Source: Achromobacter sp. UMC71
GTDB taxonomy: Bacteria; Pseudomonadota; Gammaproteobacteria; Burkholderiales; Burkholderiaceae_B
Length of the DNA stretch: 64,000 bases
Direction: 5' to 3'
Assembly (NCBI RefSeq): GCF_014170305.1
Contig: NZ_LZZT01000049.1
Span: 1 to 64,000, forward strand
Shown here piece after piece: positions 14,461-23,036 of the stretch (position 1 is its first letter; the number at the start of each line of letters is the position of its first letter). The position numbers were made by a program, and so were the translations under genes. A model generated the notes under the pieces. It saw only the letters and a list, made by a program, of their open reading frames with translations. It had not been told where the DNA came from and did no database searches.

Positions 14461-15543
14461 CTAGGCGGGGAAGACGCTGATTTCGCCGTCCAGTTCAGCG
14501 GTCTGGCGGCCGTGGGCCTGCTGATACTGGCGCGGCGATTGCCCGAAATGCGCGCGAAAATCGCGTGAAAAATGCGCGCCGTCGGCAAAACCGCAGTCCA
14601 GGGCGATTTGCGTGATGCTGCAGGCATTATTGAGCAGCAGCCAACTGCCGTATTCCAGCCGCAGTTGCCGTTGAAACGCCATGGGCGACATGCCCGTGGC
14701 CAGACGGAATGCCCTTTCCAGCTGGCGCCGGCCCACACCGACATAACGCGCGATGGCGTCCAGCGGCGGCGGATTATCGATGCGCTGCTCGATGAAATGC
14801 GCGGCCTGGCGCACCCGCAGGTCCTGGATGCCCGACAGGTCGGTGCGGAAATGCGCCTGCGGCACGCGGCCCGGCCGCACGCCCTGCAGCATCATGTGGC
14901 GCATGGCCTGCTGCGCCTTGTCGCGGCCGCAATGGCGCGCCACCAGGTACAGCCCCAGGTCGATCGCAGCGGTGGAACCCGCGCAGGAGATCAAATCGCC
15001 TTCGTCCACGAACAGCCGGTCGACCACGGCACGGCTGTGGGGGAAGCGCTCGCGGAAGGCTTCCAACACATTCCAGTGCACGCACACCGTGCGTGGCCCG
15101 ATCACATCGGCCTGGGCCAAGGCAAAGGTGCCGGTGCAGATGCCCAGCAAGCGCACCCGCTGCGCCGCGGCCAGCCGCAGCCAGTCGCGCAGCGGTTCGG
15201 GCATGCGGCCGCCGATGTAGTCATTGCCGCCACAGACCGCCACGTAGTCGAACTGCGTCGGGTCATCGGGCAAGCCCGCGGCCACGTCGATGGTCAGGCC
15301 GGCGCTGGAGCAGCGGGGCTTGCCGTCCCAGCTCATCACCCGCCAGGCGGTGTGGATCTGCCGGCTGCGTCCACCGTGGTCGCCGGCCAACCGCAAGACA
15401 TCCACAAAACCGGCGAACGCGGCGAGCGTGAACTGGTCGAGCAGCACCAGGCCGACCGTCAGCGAGGGTTTCCCCTGAGGCGGGGCCTGCTCGCCGTCTT
15501 CATAGGAGAGCGGCGTGGACGAGGGTGGCGGGGCGACAGTCAT
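14461..15543 (-). CDS. GlxA-family AraC transcriptional regulator
   Basis: A 360-residue regulator with an N-terminal DJ-1/PfpI amidotransferase-like domain (about 25-200; it keeps LLGICTGTFALAQA with a nucleophile-elbow Cys) and a C-terminal AraC/XylS double helix-turn-helix (about 250-350; DAIARYVGVGRRQLERAFRLATGMSP and ITQIALDCGFADGAHFSRDFRAHFGQSP). Known GlxA-type regulators (CdhR, GbdR, ArgR of Pseudomonas) control uptake and breakdown of quaternary amines or amino acids. It is divergent from the importer/proline-racemase-family operon starting at 15668, its likely target. The start MTVAPPPSS has no strong ribosome-binding site; an upstream in-frame ATG exists. Confidence 0.85.
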   Translation of the reverse strand: MTVAPPPSSTPLSYEDGEQAPPQGKPSLTVGLVLLDQFTLAAFAGFVDVLRLAGDHGGRSRQIHTAWRVMSWDGKPRCSSAGLTIDVAAGLPDDPTQFDYVAVCGGNDYIGGRMPEPLRDWLRLAAAQRVRLLGICTGTFALAQADVIGPRTVCVHWNVLEAFRERFPHSRAVVDRLFVDEGDLISCAGSTAAIDLGLYLVARHCGRDKAQQAMRHMMLQGVRPGRVPQAHFRTDLSGIQDLRVRQAAHFIEQRIDNPPPLDAIARYVGVGRRQLERAFRLATGMSPMAFQRQLRLEYGSWLLLNNACSITQIALDCGFADGAHFSRDFRAHFGQSPRQYQQAHGRQTAELDGEISVFPA

Positions 15544-15667
15544 GACGCAATTATTCAAGTTTATGTCCCGCGCCTTCAAGCTCGTTTTCCCGAGCATCGC
15601 CCAAGATGTGCGTGTGGTACTTGAGTCAATGCATCACGGATCGACAAATCTACAAGGGGAATCCGAC

Positions 15668-16723
15668 ATGGCAACACATCACCGCAGCGCGCTGGGCGCC
15701 GTTGCGCTGGGCGCGGGGCTGATCCTGGCTTCGCAGACCGCGCTGGCGCAGCAGCAGAAAATCACCGTCGCCTGGTACGGCGGCAACTGGGGCGACGCGT
15801 TCCGCGCCTGCGTGGCCGATCCCTACACCAAGGCGACCGGCGTGACGGTGGTGCCGGAAGTCGGCACGTCCACCACCACCCTTGCCAAGCTGCAGCAGCA
15901 AAAGGCCGCGCCCACCATCGACGTGGCCTGGATGGACGGCGGCATCAGCGAACTGGCGCAGCAGGCCGGCGTGCTGGACGCGCTGGACCCGGCCGCCGTG
16001 CCCAACCTGAAGAACGTGATCGACCAGGGCGTCTACCGGGACGGCGCGTCGGTGTTCGCGGTCAGCACCGGTTACTACTCGCTGGGCATCACGTACAACA
16101 CCAAGGAAGTGACGCAGCCGCCGACCAGCTGGAAGGACCTGTGGAAGCCCGAATACGCGGGCGCGGTGGCGGTGCCCTCGCCGGCCAATTCGTCGGGCGT
16201 GCCGTTCATTTTCTTCCTGGCGCGCGTCTGGGCCATCGACCCGTCGAACCTGGGCCCGCTCTACGCCAAGCTGGCCTCGCTGGACACCGCGCTGTTCTTC
16301 GACAGTTCGGGCGCGGCCACCAATGCCTACCAGAGCGGCGAGGCCGTGATCGGCGCGCACTTCAACGTGGGCGCCTGGGACCTGATCGACAAGGGCCTGC
16401 CCATCGGCTTCACGGTGCCCAAGGAAGGCGCCTGGGCCACCGACGCGCGGCTGCACCTGGTCAAGGGCGCGCCCAACAAGGCCGCCGCGCAGAAGTTCAT
16501 CGACACCGCGCTGACGCCGGATGCGGCCGCGTGTCTGGCCAGCCGCCTGTACCTGGGGCCTGCGGTCAAGGACGTGCAGGTGTCCAAGGACGTCGCCCGC
16601 AAGCTGCCGTGGGGCGCGGAGGGATCGGTCAAGAACCTGAGCCTGTTCGACTGGAACATCATCAACACCCGCCGCGCCGAGATCACCGATGCGTGGAACC
16701 GGCAGGTTGCCCGCAAGCGCTGA
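15668..16723 (+). CDS. ABC transporter substrate-binding protein, PotD-like
   Basis: A 351-residue periplasmic binding protein with a Sec signal peptide (ALGAVALGAGLILASQTALAQ). The mature part begins KITVAWYGGNWGDAFRACV and contains the usual family-1 pattern AVPSPANSSG and a C-terminal KLPWGAEGSVKNLSLFDWNIINTRRAEITDAWNR. It is of the spermidine/putrescine-opine-type cluster D proteins. GGGGA precedes the ATG. It is the first gene of an operon with ATPase, two permeases and a proline-racemase-family enzyme, which points to an amino-acid- or imino-acid-like substrate rather than a polyamine. Confidence 0.85.
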   Translation: MATHHRSALGAVALGAGLILASQTALAQQQKITVAWYGGNWGDAFRACVADPYTKATGVTVVPEVGTSTTTLAKLQQQKAAPTIDVAWMDGGISELAQQAGVLDALDPAAVPNLKNVIDQGVYRDGASVFAVSTGYYSLGITYNTKEVTQPPTSWKDLWKPEYAGAVAVPSPANSSGVPFIFFLARVWAIDPSNLGPLYAKLASLDTALFFDSSGAATNAYQSGEAVIGAHFNVGAWDLIDKGLPIGFTVPKEGAWATDARLHLVKGAPNKAAAQKFIDTALTPDAAACLASRLYLGPAVKDVQVSKDVARKLPWGAEGSVKNLSLFDWNIINTRRAEITDAWNRQVARKR

Positions 16724-16739: not shown

Positions 16740-17789
16740 ATGTCTGCTTTGCTCACTATCGAAGGCGTGTCGATGCGCTTTGGCGCCTACCAGGCGCTGG
16801 ACCATATCGACCTGGCCATCCAGCAGGGAGAGTTCGTGGCGCTGTTGGGCCCCAGCGGCTGCGGCAAGACCACGCTGCTCAAGTCGATCGCCGGCTTCCT
16901 GAAGCCGGAATCGGGCCGCATCCTGATCGACGGCCAGGACGTCAGCCGCCTGCCGGCGCACCAACGCCCGCTCAATACCGTGTTCCAGAACTACGCGCTG
17001 TTCCCGCACATGACGGTGCTGGAGAACGTGGCCTACGGCCCGCGGCGCCAGGGCGCGTCCCGGCCCCAGGCGGCGGCCCGCGCCAAGGATGCGCTGGACA
17101 TGGTGGGGCTGGCCGACTTCGGCTCGCGCTATCCGCGTGAAATGTCCGGCGGCCAGCAGCAGCGCGTGGCGCTGGCCCGCGCCATCGTCAACCAGCCCAA
17201 GCTGTTGTTGCTGGACGAACCGCTGTCGGCGCTGGACCTGAAGCTGCGCAAGCGCATGCAGCTTGAACTGAAGCACCTGCAGGCCCGCCTGGGCATCGCC
17301 TTCATCTTCGTCACCCACGACCAGGAAGAAGCGATGACCATGGCCGACCGCGTCGTGGTCATGCACGCCGGCAGGATCGAACAGGTAGGCGCGGGCACCG
17401 AGATCTACCGCCGCCCGGCCACGCAGTTCGTGGCCGAGTTCATCGGCGACGCCAATTTCCTGGCCTACACCGCCGCCGACGATGGCACCCTGGTGCTGGA
17501 TGCGCAGGACCTGCGCCTGCCGCAGGCCCCAAGACCGCCGGTATCGCGCGGCCTGGCCGTGCTGCGGCCGGAAGACCTGAAACTGTGCGCCCCCGCGGAC
17601 GCCATGCTGACCGGCACCGTGACCGATGTGATCAACGTCGGCAGCCACAGCATGATCCACGTCGACATCGGCGCCCAGACGCTGGTGGCGCGGCACGGCG
17701 GCATCGCGCCAACCGGGCTGCGCGCGGGCGCCGACGTCGCGCTGGCGTTCGCGCCGCAGCATCTGCACCTGATCGGCGGACAGCCATGA
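16740..17789 (+). CDS. ABC transporter ATP-binding protein, PotA-like
   Basis: A 349-residue ATPase with Walker A GPSGCGKTT, Q-loop VFQNYALFPHM, signature SGGQQQRV, Walker B LLLLDEP, the H-loop VTHDQEEA, and a C-terminal TOBE/MalK-type beta domain (about 270-345; LAVLRPEDLKL). It energises the importer encoded by its neighbours. The ATG lies 16 bases after the binding-protein stop, and its own stop overlaps the start of the next gene (ATGA), so translation is probably coupled. Confidence 0.88.
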   Translation: MSALLTIEGVSMRFGAYQALDHIDLAIQQGEFVALLGPSGCGKTTLLKSIAGFLKPESGRILIDGQDVSRLPAHQRPLNTVFQNYALFPHMTVLENVAYGPRRQGASRPQAAARAKDALDMVGLADFGSRYPREMSGGQQQRVALARAIVNQPKLLLLDEPLSALDLKLRKRMQLELKHLQARLGIAFIFVTHDQEEAMTMADRVVVMHAGRIEQVGAGTEIYRRPATQFVAEFIGDANFLAYTAADDGTLVLDAQDLRLPQAPRPPVSRGLAVLRPEDLKLCAPADAMLTGTVTDVINVGSHSMIHVDIGAQTLVARHGGIAPTGLRAGADVALAFAPQHLHLIGGQP

Positions 17790-18634
17790 TGCGGCGCGCC
17801 TGGCTTTCTCCCGGCCTGCTGCTGGCGGCCCCGGTGCTGTTTTTCGCGGCGTTCTTCCTGGCGCCGCTGGCCGTGGTGGCGCTGGCCAGCGCCACCGGCG
17901 GGCCTGACGGCCTGACGCCCACGGCGGCGCAATACCTGCGGGTGCTGGCCGACCAGTATCACTGGGACGTAATCCTGGTGACGTTCCGCCTGGCGCTGTT
18001 CACCACGCTGGCCTGCCTGGTGCTGGGGTATCCGCTGGCCTGGTACCTGGTGCGCGTCGTGCGCTGGCAAGCCTGGCGCCGAGCCTGCGTGATCCTGCTG
18101 GTGGTGCCGCTGTTCACCAGCAACATCGTGCGCGCCTTCGGCTGGATGGTGCTGCTGGGCCGCAACGGGCTGGTCAACCAGGGGCTGATGGCCACGGGCG
18201 CTGTCGACCGCCCGGTGCGCTTCATCGGCACCGAGCTGGGCATCCTGATCGGCATGGTGTACGTGCTGCTGCCCTTCGTGGTGCTGGCGGTGGGCAATGC
18301 GCTGGCGCGGGTGGACCCGGCCTGCGAACAGGCGTCCGCCGACCTGGGCGCCAGTCCGGCCGCGACCTTTTTCCACGTGACCTGGCCGCTGACGCTACCC
18401 GGCGTGGTGTCGGGCGCCATCATCGTCTTCACCCTGGCGGTCAGCGCCTATGTGACGCCGGCGCTGCTATCGGGCGGCCGCGTCACGGTGCTGTCGATGC
18501 TGATCTTCCAGCAGTACAGCACGGTGTTCGATTTTCATTATGGCGGTGCGCTCAGCATGGTGCTGCTGGTCTTTACCCTGATCCTGGTGGCGCTGGCCAA
18601 CCGCGCCGCCACCCTGCCGGGAGCCGCGCGATGA
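17786..18634 (+). CDS. ABC transporter permease, PotB-like
   Basis: A 282-residue inner-membrane permease with six predicted spans and the cytoplasmic EAA-type loop (ACEQASADLGASPAATFFHVTWPLTLPGVVSG) that docks the ATPase. The start overlaps the ATPase stop by four bases, and the stop overlaps the start of the second permease. Together with the next gene it forms the heterodimeric channel of the importer. Confidence 0.88.
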   Translation: MMRRAWLSPGLLLAAPVLFFAAFFLAPLAVVALASATGGPDGLTPTAAQYLRVLADQYHWDVILVTFRLALFTTLACLVLGYPLAWYLVRVVRWQAWRRACVILLVVPLFTSNIVRAFGWMVLLGRNGLVNQGLMATGAVDRPVRFIGTELGILIGMVYVLLPFVVLAVGNALARVDPACEQASADLGASPAATFFHVTWPLTLPGVVSGAIIVFTLAVSAYVTPALLSGGRVTVLSMLIFQQYSTVFDFHYGGALSMVLLVFTLILVALANRAATLPGAAR

Positions 18635-19422
18635 TCGCCCGCCACCTGATCCGCCTGACCGCCCTGGCCGTGCTGGCCTACCTGGCGCTGCCCCTGGTGG
18701 TGATCCTGGGCGCGTCGTTCACCGCCACGCCGTACCTGGCGTTTCCGCCGCAAGGCTGGACGCTGGAGTGGTACCGCACGCTGCTGGTCGAAGCCGGCTA
18801 TGTCGCCGCGTTCACCACCAGCACCGTGCTGGCTTTGGCGGCGACCGTCGCGGCGGTGCTGCTGACGGTGCCGGCGGCGCTGGCGCTGGCGCGCTATGAA
18901 TTTCCGGGCAAGGCGGCGCTGACCTCGGTGCTGATGTCACCGTTGGTGCTGCCGCACATCGTGCTGGGCGCGGCGCTCTTGCAGTTCGGGGCGTACTTCG
19001 GGCTGACCCGCAGTTTCCTGTCGTTGTTGATCGGCCACATCGTGATCATCGCGCCGTTCGTGCTGCGGTCCACGCTGACGCTGCTGACGCCCGAACAACG
19101 GGCGCTGGAAGAGGCGTCTGCCGACCTGGGCGCCAACTCCTGGACCACGTTCTTCCTGGTGGTGCTGCCGCAGATCCGCCCCGGCATCGTGACCGGTTCG
19201 ATCTTTGCGTTCATCTCGTCGTGGATCAACGTGGAACTGTCCATCTTCAATACCACCGCGGACCTGAACACGATCCCGGTGAAGCTTTTCAACTATGTGC
19301 AATACACGATTGATCCGACCATCGCAGCCGTATCGGGCGCCACGATCGTGGCTGCGGTCGTCGCTATCGTGATCCTGGATTTGACCGTCGGGCTGGACAT
19401 GCTGTCCGAACGCGGCAAATAA
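18631..19422 (+). CDS. ABC transporter permease, PotC-like
   Basis: A 263-residue permease with six spans; the EAA loop is seen as LEEASADLGANSWTTFFLVVLPQIRPGIVTG. It overlaps the first permease by four bases (ATGA). It is the last transporter subunit, and the proline-racemase-family gene starts 35 bases further on the same strand. Confidence 0.88.
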   Translation: MIARHLIRLTALAVLAYLALPLVVILGASFTATPYLAFPPQGWTLEWYRTLLVEAGYVAAFTTSTVLALAATVAAVLLTVPAALALARYEFPGKAALTSVLMSPLVLPHIVLGAALLQFGAYFGLTRSFLSLLIGHIVIIAPFVLRSTLTLLTPEQRALEEASADLGANSWTTFFLVVLPQIRPGIVTGSIFAFISSWINVELSIFNTTADLNTIPVKLFNYVQYTIDPTIAAVSGATIVAAVVAIVILDLTVGLDMLSERGK

Positions 19423-19457: not shown

Positions 19458-20471
19458 ATGCGCAAGCAAGACGCGTTCGATGTCATCTATACCCATACGG
19501 AAGGCGAGCCTTTGTGCATCGTGCATAGCGGCATTCCGTACCCTGCCGGCTCGACCATTCTGGAAAAGCGCGCGTTCCTGGAACAGCACTACGACTGGCT
19601 GCGCAAGGCGCTGATGCGCGAGCCGCGCGGCCACAAGGACATGTTCGGCGTGTTCCTCACGCCGCCGTCCAGCCCTGAGTACGACGCCGGCCTGATCTAC
19701 ATCGACGGCACCGAGTATTCGCACATGTGCGGCCACGGCACCATCGCGGTCAGCATGGCCATGGTGGCCAACGGCCTGGTGCCGCGCGGCAAGGACGGCA
19801 TCACCCGCATCCGTTTCGAGACCACCGCCGGGCTGGTGGTGTCGGAAGTCGCCTCCGAAGGCGACAACGTGCTGTGGACCCGCTTCGAGAACGTGCCGGC
19901 CTATGTGGCGGCGCAGGACATCCCGGTGGAACTGCCGGGCTACGGCAAGCTGTCGGCCGACATCGTGTGGGGCGGCAACTACTTCGGCATCGTCGACCTG
20001 TCGAACTGCGGCCTGCGCATTTCGCCGGACAACGGCACGGAACTGTCGCGCATGGGCCTGTTGGTGCGCGACCAGCTCAATGCACGCCACCGCATCCAGC
20101 ATCCGACCGAGGCGCACATCAACAACCTGAACTTCATCACGTTCTGGCACCAGCCGACGATCGAGGGCGCGTTCTACAAGAACGTGCACGTGTTCAGCGC
20201 GGGCCAATTGGACCGTTCACCCGGCGGCACCGGCACCAGCGCGATGATGGCGATGTTCGAGGCGCGCGGCAAGATGGGCCTGAACCAGCCGATCAAGTCC
20301 GAAGGCCTGCTGGGCAGCGGCACGTTCGAGGGCTGCCTGCTGGGCGAGGTGAACCTGAACGGCACCCGCGCCGTGCGCCCCACGGTCAAGGGCACGGCCA
20401 GCATCCTGGGCACGGCGCGCTGGGTCATCGACAAGAATGATCCGGTGGGCGCGGGGTTCCTGATTCGTTGA
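19458..20471 (+). CDS. Proline racemase/hydroxyproline epimerase family protein with altered active site
   Basis: A 337-residue member of the proline racemase superfamily, which racemises, epimerises or dehydrates proline derivatives. The first catalytic cysteine is present in SHMCGHGTI (Cys91). The second motif, DRSPCGTGTS in racemases and epimerases and DRSPTGTGTS in trans-3-hydroxy-L-proline dehydratases, reads DRSPGGTGTS here, so residue 256 is glycine. A normal two-base racemase mechanism therefore seems unlikely. Otherwise the protein is full length and well conserved. It is the last gene of the importer operon under the GlxA-type regulator, so its substrate is probably what the importer brings in. 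The real reaction is unknown. Confidence 0.8.
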   Translation: MRKQDAFDVIYTHTEGEPLCIVHSGIPYPAGSTILEKRAFLEQHYDWLRKALMREPRGHKDMFGVFLTPPSSPEYDAGLIYIDGTEYSHMCGHGTIAVSMAMVANGLVPRGKDGITRIRFETTAGLVVSEVASEGDNVLWTRFENVPAYVAAQDIPVELPGYGKLSADIVWGGNYFGIVDLSNCGLRISPDNGTELSRMGLLVRDQLNARHRIQHPTEAHINNLNFITFWHQPTIEGAFYKNVHVFSAGQLDRSPGGTGTSAMMAMFEARGKMGLNQPIKSEGLLGSGTFEGCLLGEVNLNGTRAVRPTVKGTASILGTARWVIDKNDPVGAGFLIR

Positions 20472-20908: not shown

Positions 20909-21376
20909 ATGACGCCCGTCGTGTTCGCCCCCGATGCCTTGCGCGACATCATTGACATGCAGCGGTACTTCAGCGCTGCGGGCTCCGCCCGTGCGGCGGA
21001 TCGATACATTGATGATGTCGTACGGGCCTGCCTGGACTTGGCGAGTTTTCCCTACCGGGGCGCGCAGCGCGATACCGTCACGCCCGATATGCGATTTCTG
21101 CACCATCAGCGACGCTGCACGATTGCCTATAAAGTGGGCGAACGCGCGTCAGTGACCATCATTGGCATTTTCTACGGCGGAGGCGACTACAGCCATCTGC
21201 TGCGGGAACCCCCGGCGCACTATCAGCGCCCTGTTTATCGGACGCTTGCGGCAATCCCTGCCCCGGGCTTAGGATGGAGCCACGGCCATACCGCTCGCCG
21301 CGCGCAGTCGGGCGGCACGGGCCGGCGTTTGAACCTTGCCAGCGATTCGGGAGCACATCGTGAAGAAAGTTGCTGA
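20909..21376 (+). CDS. ParE/RelE-superfamily toxin with C-terminal read-through
   Basis: Residues 1-100 match the ParE/RelE fold: FAPDALRDIIDMQRYFSAAGSARAADRYIDDVVRACLDLASFPYRG, then RFLHHQRRCTIAYKVGERASVTIIGIFYGGGDYSHLLRE, the usual end of this family. Members inhibit gyrase (ParE) or cleave mRNA (RelE). Here the frame continues for about 55 more residues of Arg/Gly-rich sequence without family character and runs 17 bases into the next gene. The extension looks like loss of the original stop codon. It is translated directly behind the antitoxin gene. Confidence 0.7.
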   Translation: MTPVVFAPDALRDIIDMQRYFSAAGSARAADRYIDDVVRACLDLASFPYRGAQRDTVTPDMRFLHHQRRCTIAYKVGERASVTIIGIFYGGGDYSHLLREPPAHYQRPVYRTLAAIPAPGLGWSHGHTARRAQSGGTGRRLNLASDSGAHREESC

Positions 21377-21800
21377 GATTCTCAGGGAAAAGGCCAACCC
21401 GGCCGTCGTGACGGTCACGCCGGACTCGTCGGTATACGACGCCATCAAGACCATGGCCGAACGCGGCATCGGCGCGGTGGTGGTGGTGGACGGCACCGAG
21501 GTGCTGGGCATGCTGACCGAGCGCGATTACGCCCGCAAGATCGTGCTGCAGGACCGTTCGTCGCGTACCACCAAAGTGCGCGACATCATGACCGATTCCG
21601 TTTTCTACGTGCGCCCGGAAGACACCCGCGAACACTGTATGGCGCTGATGACCGAACGGCACTTCCGCCATCTGCCGGTCATCGACGACCAGAAGCTGGT
21701 GGGCCTGGTATCCATCGGCGACCTGGTCAAGGATGTCATGAGCGAACAGAAGTTCATCATCACGGAACTCGAACGCTACATTTCCGGCCAGACGCACTGA
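21360..21800 (+). CDS. CBS-domain pair protein
   Basis: A 146-residue protein made of two CBS domains (about 8-62 and 72-130): VTVTPDSSVYDAIKTMAERGIGAVVVVDGTEVLGMLTERDYARKI and FYVRPEDTREHCMALMTERHFRHLPVIDDQKLVGLVSIGDLV. Such Bateman modules bind adenine nucleotides and report energy state. GTG 21360 is chosen as the start because GGGAG lies 7 bases upstream and the protein then opens KKVAEILREKAN as in homologues. A TTG 24 bases earlier is an alternative. The start overlaps the end of the extended toxin frame. Confidence 0.85.
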   Translation: MKKVAEILREKANPAVVTVTPDSSVYDAIKTMAERGIGAVVVVDGTEVLGMLTERDYARKIVLQDRSSRTTKVRDIMTDSVFYVRPEDTREHCMALMTERHFRHLPVIDDQKLVGLVSIGDLVKDVMSEQKFIITELERYISGQTH

Positions 21801-21859: not shown

Positions 21860-22624
21860 CTAGCCGCCCGCCAGGATCCTGGACGCGGGTACCACCAAGC
21901 CCAGCCCGGCCGCCACCAGCAGCACGAATACCATCCGCTTGATGGTTTTCATCGACCCGGCGGTGCCGTAGCGCCGCGCCGCCCAAGTCACGCCAATGAC
22001 CACCGGCAGGGCCTGCAGGCTGAGCCAGAACGCATTCGCCTTGAACGCGCCCTGCCCGGTCACCAGCGCCAGGCGCACCACGGCGTTCAAGGAAAACAGC
22101 ACCAGCAGGCTGTTGCGGATGGACGCCAGCGGCAAGGGCTGGCGGTACAGGTGATACACCATGGGCGGCCCGGCGCTGGAAAACAAGCCGCCCAGCACGC
22201 CGGACACGCCGCCGAAGAACAGGAACGACCCGCGCGAGGACATACGTTCCAGCGGCTGGGTGCGCGCCACGAGCAAGACCGCGCAGGCCATGATGGTGAC
22301 GCCCAGAAGCAATTGCAGCAGCACCGCCATGGACCCGCTGATCCACGCCAGCGCCGCCACGCCCACGCCGACCCCGACCAGGCTGCTGGCCAGGGCCGGC
22401 GCCATCAAGCGCCAACTGACCTGCGGCTTGGCGCGGGCCAGCGTGACGGCGGCATTGACCAGTGACAGCACGCTGACCACATTGGCCACATCGGACACGG
22501 ACGCCAGCTGGAACACGCCGGACAAGCCCAGCAGCACCAGGCCGAAAGCGAAACCCGTCATGGTCTGGGCGTAGGTGGCCAGCGCCACGCAGGCGAGGAA
22601 CAACACGTGTTGGAAGATGCTCAT
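21860..22624 (-). CDS. TauE/SafE-family membrane permease
   Basis: A 254-residue inner-membrane protein with about eight spans and the two repeated halves typical of TauE/SafE (DUF81) proteins: a Gly-rich YAQTMTGFAFGLVLLGLSG after span 1 and FFGGVSGVLGGLFSSAGPPMVYHLY in the second half. Members are proposed exporters of sulfite or sulfoacetate and related organic anions. MSIFQHVLF is taken as the start; an upstream ATG at 22711 would add 29 Arg/Pro-rich residues. It is monocistronic on the minus strand and convergent with the CBS gene. Confidence 0.82.
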   Translation of the reverse strand: MSIFQHVLFLACVALATYAQTMTGFAFGLVLLGLSGVFQLASVSDVANVVSVLSLVNAAVTLARAKPQVSWRLMAPALASSLVGVGVGVAALAWISGSMAVLLQLLLGVTIMACAVLLVARTQPLERMSSRGSFLFFGGVSGVLGGLFSSAGPPMVYHLYRQPLPLASIRNSLLVLFSLNAVVRLALVTGQGAFKANAFWLSLQALPVVIGVTWAARRYGTAGSMKTIKRMVFVLLVAAGLGLVVPASRILAGG

Positions 22625-23036
22625 GCTTCGGGCGGAGCCTGACCTGCCTCGGCTCGGCCCGGCCGCGCGGAAGGCGGCCAAGAGCGGAACGACTGGGAAC
22701 GGCGTATTCAAGAAGAGGATTGGACGCGGGCGATGATATCACCGGGGGTGGAAGGGCCTGGCTGCCTTGCCCGGGCCCCAGCCTGCGGCCGCCGCCAAGA
22801 CCGCGACCTGGAACGCGATGGGAACCCCGTCTGGAGGGCCGCCTGGACGCCCGCATGGAGCCCAGTCTTGAAGCGCGTCTGCAGCCCCGCCCATACATCT
22901 TGTCATAACTGGATGCGTTCATGCACCCAGCCTCCCGCCGCCCCCCGCTATCCTTCCCGCCCTGTAAGCCACGCTCTGCCGGGTCTTGCCGCGCCATCCC
23001 GGCGCCGCGTCGAGCCCGGCGCGTTTTCCGCCCAGC
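22625..23036. other. Intergenic region between divergent TauE-like and zinc-ribbon genes
   Basis: About 410 bases. The small plus-strand frame at 22720-22908 encodes an Arg/Pro-rich peptide with internal similarity (EPRLEGRLDARMEPSLEARL), which reflects a locally repetitive GC-rich DNA stretch rather than a known protein. No promoter consensus or operator is clear. Confidence 0.35.

Follow-up and report, generated by a model that had tools for sequence, protein, structure and literature searches.

The proline racemase superfamily (PRS) is a model of how a single fold, by way of two active-site positions, can serve as a racemase, an epimerase or a dehydratase. A PRS gene of Achromobacter sp. 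UMC71 encodes glycine at the second of these positions, which raises the question of whether its product is still an enzyme and, if so, what reaction it may catalyze. We analyzed the 64,000-nt stretch of DNA that carries this gene (the window). The features concerned are as follows.

14461..15597, minus strand: GlxA/GbdR-like regulator (DJ-1/PfpI plus AraC HTH), divergent from the importer operon (ORF, profiles, synteny)
15668..16723, plus strand: solute-binding protein of the ABC importer, polyamine/opine superfamily, start inferred (profiles, structure-chain matches, alignment, synteny)
16740..17789, plus strand: ATPase of the ABC importer, PotA/PhnT2-like (profile, synteny)
17786..18634, plus strand: permease 1 of the ABC importer, PotB-like, start inferred, overlapping the ATPase stop (ORF, profiles, synteny)
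18631..19422, plus strand: permease 2 of the ABC importer, PotC-like (ORF, profile, synteny)
19458..20471, plus strand: Gly256-type PRS enzyme, 337 aa (ORF, Pfam/NCBIfam profiles, alignment, tree, model, fold match)
19728..19730, plus strand: Cys91 of MCGHG, the retained catalytic thiol and presumed L-face base (DNA read, alignment; role from PMC4113996)
19734..19736, plus strand: His93, whose matching residue touches the prolyl nitrogen in a solved epimerase (alignment; role from PMC4113996)
20211..20213, plus strand: Asp252, whose matching residue touches the prolyl nitrogen (DNA read, alignment; role from PMC4113996)
20223..20225, plus strand: Gly256 codon GGC; Cys in two-thiol members, Thr in 3-hydroxyproline dehydratases (DNA read, alignment)

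The reading frame at 19458-20471 has no internal stop in the open reading frame list. The codons from 20211 are GAC CGT TCA CCC GGC GGC ACC GGC, that is, D252 R S P G256 G T G, and Cys91 and His93 lie within SHMCGHGTI. Direct reading of the DNA and the 337-aa frame bore out the sequence-only reading, which had described an intact protein with Gly256 encoded by GGC at 20223-20225 and Cys91 kept. In a Pfam scan the protein matched PF05544 at 314.9 bits against a gathering cut-off of 27, which places it in the PRS. It scored below the NCBIfam cut-offs for proline racemase (NF010576, 303 bits, cut-off 556), for the t3HypD models (284, cut-off 540; 197, cut-off 550) and for the epimerase models (NF010578, 260, cut-off 376; 171, cut-off 450; 152, cut-off 442), the top PRS score being that for proline racemase, followed by dehydratase. 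With Cys91 and Gly256, it has neither cysteine at both catalytic positions, as two-thiol members do, nor the Cys/Cys or Ser/Cys pair of 4-hydroxyproline 2-epimerase. A genome search found it to be the sole PRS gene of the source genome.

Residues 91, 93, 252 and 256 were C, H, D and G in 111/111 aligned loci (L001-L111), which represent 87 distinct aligned proteins of 79-100% identity from alpha-, beta- and gammaproteobacteria; L001 and L002 are both the gene of the window itself, and there is overlap in genomes between L003-L031 and L032-L111. Codon 256 was GGC in 69, GGT in 9 and GGG in 5 of 83 loci, and dN/dS against ten Achromobacter orthologues was 0.039-0.081, reflecting strong purifying selection. 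The universal Gly256 and the codon counts rule out a sequencing error or a strain-specific mutation with Cys or Thr in close homologues, and the stop-free frame and dN/dS rule out a pseudogene; the selection also supports the earlier view that the protein is probably functional. The clade was found in Achromobacter, Cupriavidus, Paraburkholderia, Pandoraea, Pseudomonas, Caenimonas, Azospirillum, Bosea, Microvirga, Ancylobacter and Billgrantia, among others, and plasmids of Shinella and Ensifer bear the gene at 78% identity. Full-length matches of at least 79% identity were present in 48 of the 268 genomes of the window's family, and the best-scoring match among the other 397 genomes of a phylum-wide sample was 39% identical. 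Judged by these matches, the Gly256 clade is patchy in distribution and sharply bounded.

The regulator, binding protein, ATPase, two permeases and, last, the PRS gene formed a full six-gene cassette, in the same order and orientation, in 80/80 loci, these being the loci with enough upstream DNA among 83 examined (L046, L059 and L097 end too early). In 43 genomes of the genus, the binding protein (E 1e-100) and the clade enzyme were both present in 34 and both absent from the same 9, one of which is 78% complete. The cassette is a portable unit with a dedicated importer and regulator, and its binding protein is inherited jointly with the enzyme; synteny and joint presence and absence thus confirm the dedicated importer and GlxA-type regulator proposed from the window alone. 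We conclude that Gly256 is the hallmark of an intact PRS subfamily that evolves under purifying selection and is encoded together with a dedicated ABC importer and a GlxA/GbdR-like regulator.

The best NCBIfam score of the window's regulator was for GbdR (195 bits, under the cut-off of 480). The binding protein matched SBP_bac families, not OpuAC, in a Pfam scan, and it matched PotD-type chains and, weakly, opine-binding chains in a search of solved-structure chains. A polyamine importer is weakly disfavored, as most acidic residues at what we take to be the PotD polyamine-contact positions were not kept in an alignment compared by eye. Beyond the cassette, a survey by simple ORF calling over about 6 kb per side showed neighbors that recur only within Achromobacter or Azospirillum, or that belong to other ABC importers (4 and 6 of 80 loci). 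Just downstream in the window lies a ParE-family toxin-like ORF (20909-21376; Pfam, 42.8 bits), and a CBS-domain protein (21336-21800, plus strand) and a TauE/SafE-type permease (21860-22711, minus strand) also lie downstream, outside the conserved cassette. On an Azospirillum plasmid (L163:14004-21254), PEP-mutase-family genes, LeuCD-like genes and a further ABC importer come after the cassette, and similar neighbors recur in four Azospirillum loci.

We probed the 83 clade loci by tblastn (E 1e-12, at least 150 aa) for catabolic and related genes, and no catabolic enzyme sought proved to be a recurrent neighbor. Two D-amino-acid oxidases (DAO), dihydrodipicolinate synthase (DHDPS), Rieske oxygenase and ProX gave 0/83; an aldehyde dehydrogenase (29% identity) and an OCD-type, pyrroline-2-carboxylate-reductase-like gene (34% identity) each lay near 1/83. 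Of 19 control loci, some of them the sources of the probes, these probes detected between 2 and 12; the OCD positive controls L166 and L167 are themselves such source loci. An MLD2-type reductase probe found 0/83 clade loci and also 0/19 controls and is therefore uninformative, and the three weak OCD-like and four MLD2 matches in the window's own genome are non-discriminating. From the oxidase, DHDPS and Rieske results, no pathway of those kinds for a D product is coded alongside the enzyme.

A maximum-likelihood tree with 83 rows joined the clade and a 48%-identical relative, L141, in one lineage (support 100/100, stem 1.09). This Gly lineage adjoined the Cys/Thr 3-hydroxyproline dehydratases at 89/89, a grouping that is not starred and not decisive and that a quicker tree repeated (SH-aLRT 89). 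Together with the conservation of Gly256, the superfamily tree agrees with the expectation of a separate clade. The relative (L141:5975-6991), whose genome encodes the clade enzyme as well, keeps Gly256, has Ser for Asp252 and immediately follows genes for a DAO-type oxidase and an ABC importer; no other such relative was found at E 1e-70 among 368 other genomes of the class sample, so its Gly rests on one long-branch sequence. Further residues distinguish the Gly lineage from other PRS rows: Cys20 (L141 and all 24 representatives of the clade) against Arg in nearly all others, Ala104 (Ser in one) where the others have Glu, Asp, Tyr or His, Thr123 instead of Pro, and Met263 instead of Arg, Lys or Asn. 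Cys20 was considered as a relocated catalytic thiol; it is more probably a swapped core contact, because residues 104 and 263 change too and lie well along two helices. The residues matching the nitrogen contacts, His93 and Asp252, are kept throughout the clade. An AF2 model of the window protein (pLDDT 79.9, pTM 0.81; 40 input sequences, all at least 79% identical) had a Foldseek TM of about 0.90 to the best PRS structures and hence the same fold. None of 15 of the 17 distinct matched solved PRS chains has Gly at residue 256 (10 Cys, 5 Thr; 4jci and 4juu are outside this count). All 40 sequences of the clade alignment have His89 and His244, neither of which was seen at its position in the Thr-type (10) and Cys-type (39) sequences compared.

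A search of 398 genomes of the phylum sample with a DR-S/T/C-PGGTG pattern at the DNA level matched 14 of them: the window's own, six in PRS genes of a second family, three with no PRS gene at the site and four remaining; a reversed control pattern matched three genomes. With seven plasmid loci added, the second family comprised 13 sequences from rhizobia and a gammaproteobacterium (L185-L197, e.g., L191:12001-12999 and L187:6053-7051), all with Cys91, Ala93 and Gly256. The six members scanned scored 545-582 bits against NF010578, above the cut-off of 376, and the family is for this reason mostly annotated as 4-hydroxyproline epimerase. In the quicker tree it was one clade (SH-aLRT 100) inside a starred Cys/Cys epimerase-like group, apart from the window lineage; therefore, the second Cys was lost at least twice. 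Its neighborhoods, with flanks of unequal length, held a ProX-type binding protein in 12/13, a DAO-type oxidase in 12/13, an aldehyde dehydrogenase in 11/13, DHDPS in 6/13 and a Rieske oxygenase in 4/13 loci. The Rieske gene of L187, the only one scanned, came closest to GbcA, a glycine betaine monooxygenase (409 bits, under the cut-off of 670), and the regulators of both families were of the AraC/DJ-1 type (one member of each scanned). By gene content, this neighborhood corresponds to the PMC4113996 hydroxyproline route, with betaine-type uptake added and, at some loci, a possible demethylase. The second family would then be a putative hydroxyproline-betaine or hydroxyproline epimerase working without the second thiol.

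What, then, might the window enzyme do? PMC4113996 assigns trans-to-cis (L-face) abstraction to the MCGH-position residue of a solved epimerase. By analogy, the substrate would be a small amino or imino acid, bound by His93, Asp252 and two helix N-termini, and Cys91 would abstract its alpha proton on the L face. Gly256 could not itself return a proton on the opposite face, so that classical two-thiol racemization would not be available and the intermediate would most likely be quenched by irreversible beta-elimination. A one-thiol enzyme of this dehydration type is our tentative first choice, at somewhat less than even chances. One-base chemistry from Cys91, which the sequence-only reading had thought possible, is consistent with the sequence evidence; the premise of that reading, that two-base racemization needs both thiols, was too strong, because a Ser/Cys PRS member has been reported as a 4-hydroxyproline epimerase (PMC4113996). 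The importer and enzyme may provide one-step entry, the product passing to enzymes encoded elsewhere; first guesses for the substrate would be a 3-hydroxyproline isomer other than trans-L or an open-chain beta-hydroxy amino acid. Elimination is favored by the constancy of Cys91 and Gly256 across the 111 loci, the low dN/dS, the cassette and its co-inheritance, the grouping with dehydratases, the one-base syn-dehydration of t3HypDs, the L-face role and the empty 0/83 probes. Arguing against it are Phe63/Asn225 at the tyrosine pair and Asn at dehydratase Ala174, the OCD gene in just 1/83 loci, the unstarred grouping with its very long Gly stem, a proline racemase score above that for dehydratase, both under cut-off, and, by analogy, the epimerase-type pathway around the second Gly family.

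Two rivals stay serious, since dehydratase hallmarks are missing from the pocket and the second family is encoded within an epimerase pathway. The enzyme might be an epimerase or racemase in which cavity water or His244/His89 returns the proton on the D face. The two clade-specific histidines would suit this role, although it is read from the alignment, and Phe63, Phe246, His93 and Asp252 keep a proline-racemase-like pocket; the second Gly family occurs among enzymes that process a D-configured product, which leaves room for epimerization by a Gly enzyme. Against this, D-amino-acid-oxidase homologues of two kinds were found at none of the 83 loci, and we regard such an epimerase as unlikely. 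Alternatively, Gly256 might make room rather than remove a catalyst, in an enzyme for N-alkylated or bulky substrates (a betaine, N-methyl or N-carboxyalkyl amino acid). The glycine-betaine/choline-type binding-protein gene beside nearly all second-family members, the Rieske genes of some, the shared regulator type with its GbdR resemblance and the weak opine-binding matches point this way; the window clade, however, keeps His93 where the second family has Ala, its loci lack Rieske and ProX homologues, and its binding protein belongs to SBP_bac rather than OpuAC. We regard this explanation, too, as unlikely. That the protein is a former enzyme, now binding or sensing a ligand on a kept PRS fold, would fit the loss of one of two catalytic residues and a cassette of importer and regulator only; given Cys91, His93 and Asp252 in every locus and the strong purifying selection, we consider it very improbable. 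Overall, many proteobacteria share an uncharacterized Cys/Gly PRS relative that is encoded with a dedicated importer and regulator and therefore probably performs a different single-base reaction on an amino-acid-like nutrient.

A bolder synthesis, which we hold to be doubtful, is that two PRS lineages independently swapped the D-face Cys for Gly to enlarge the pocket, with one thiol working; the second family would then be a hydroxyproline-betaine 2-epimerase, and the window clade would perform a reaction undescribed in the superfamily on an importer-supplied substrate. Elsewhere, hydroxyproline-betaine 2-epimerase activity belongs to an enolase-superfamily enzyme. A fourth chemistry or substrate class can be sought specifically in the widespread, constrained Cys/Gly group with its self-contained importer cassette, and the second, convergent group tests the role of position 256. 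For annotation, the second family passes the 4-hydroxyproline epimerase cut-off despite a missing catalytic residue.

According to the 2014 survey, most PRS members do only the three known reactions (PMC4113996). Among the literature matches listed, mainly main texts from open journals, we recognized no description of a Cys/Gly PRS member. In PMC1964878, Cys-Thr and Ser-Cys PRS proteins were assayed and had neither racemase nor epimerase activity. For t3HypDs, alignment suggests a single active-site Cys, with Thr as the second residue, and one base suffices for syn-dehydration (PMC4113996). The earlier statement that known dehydratases have Thr holds for the second position and is incomplete, the types being Cys/Thr or Ser/Thr. 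The window protein resembles t3HypDs in fold, in the single thiol at MCGH, in its side of the tree (89/89) and in 36% identity to 6r76 by structural matching. It differs from them in Gly256 for Thr; in Phe63 and Asn225 for the tyrosine pair, which the closed human dehydratase has as Tyr76/Tyr241 (PMC9309405), positions 63/225 in our own alignment; in Asn for Ala174; in Cys20, Ala104, Thr123 and Met263 for the Arg, Glu/Asp, Pro and Arg of the sampled dehydratases, a set that includes an LhpH-named gene in Paraburkholderia; and in the rarity of a reductase neighbor (1/83 loci). With Cys/Cys proline racemases (AsProR 7pb3; PrdAB-linked genes L161 and L168) it shares the fold (Foldseek TM 0.90), Cys91, Phe63 and Phe246, whereas it lacks the second catalytic Cys, and the D-proline reductase gene is absent from the cassettes of the window and three annotated plasmids. 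The neighbors of 4-hydroxyproline 2-epimerase, namely DAO, DHDPS and aldehyde dehydrogenase, occur at 0, 0 and 1 (29% identity) of the 83 clade loci, and the NF010578 group, including its Gly/Ala offshoot, is 30-34% identical to the window protein. That offshoot, the second family, arose independently in the tree and has Ala93 where the window clade has His93, but it has undergone the clade's Cys-to-Gly change, and at most loci read its importer adjoins an AraC/DJ-1 (GlxA) regulator gene.
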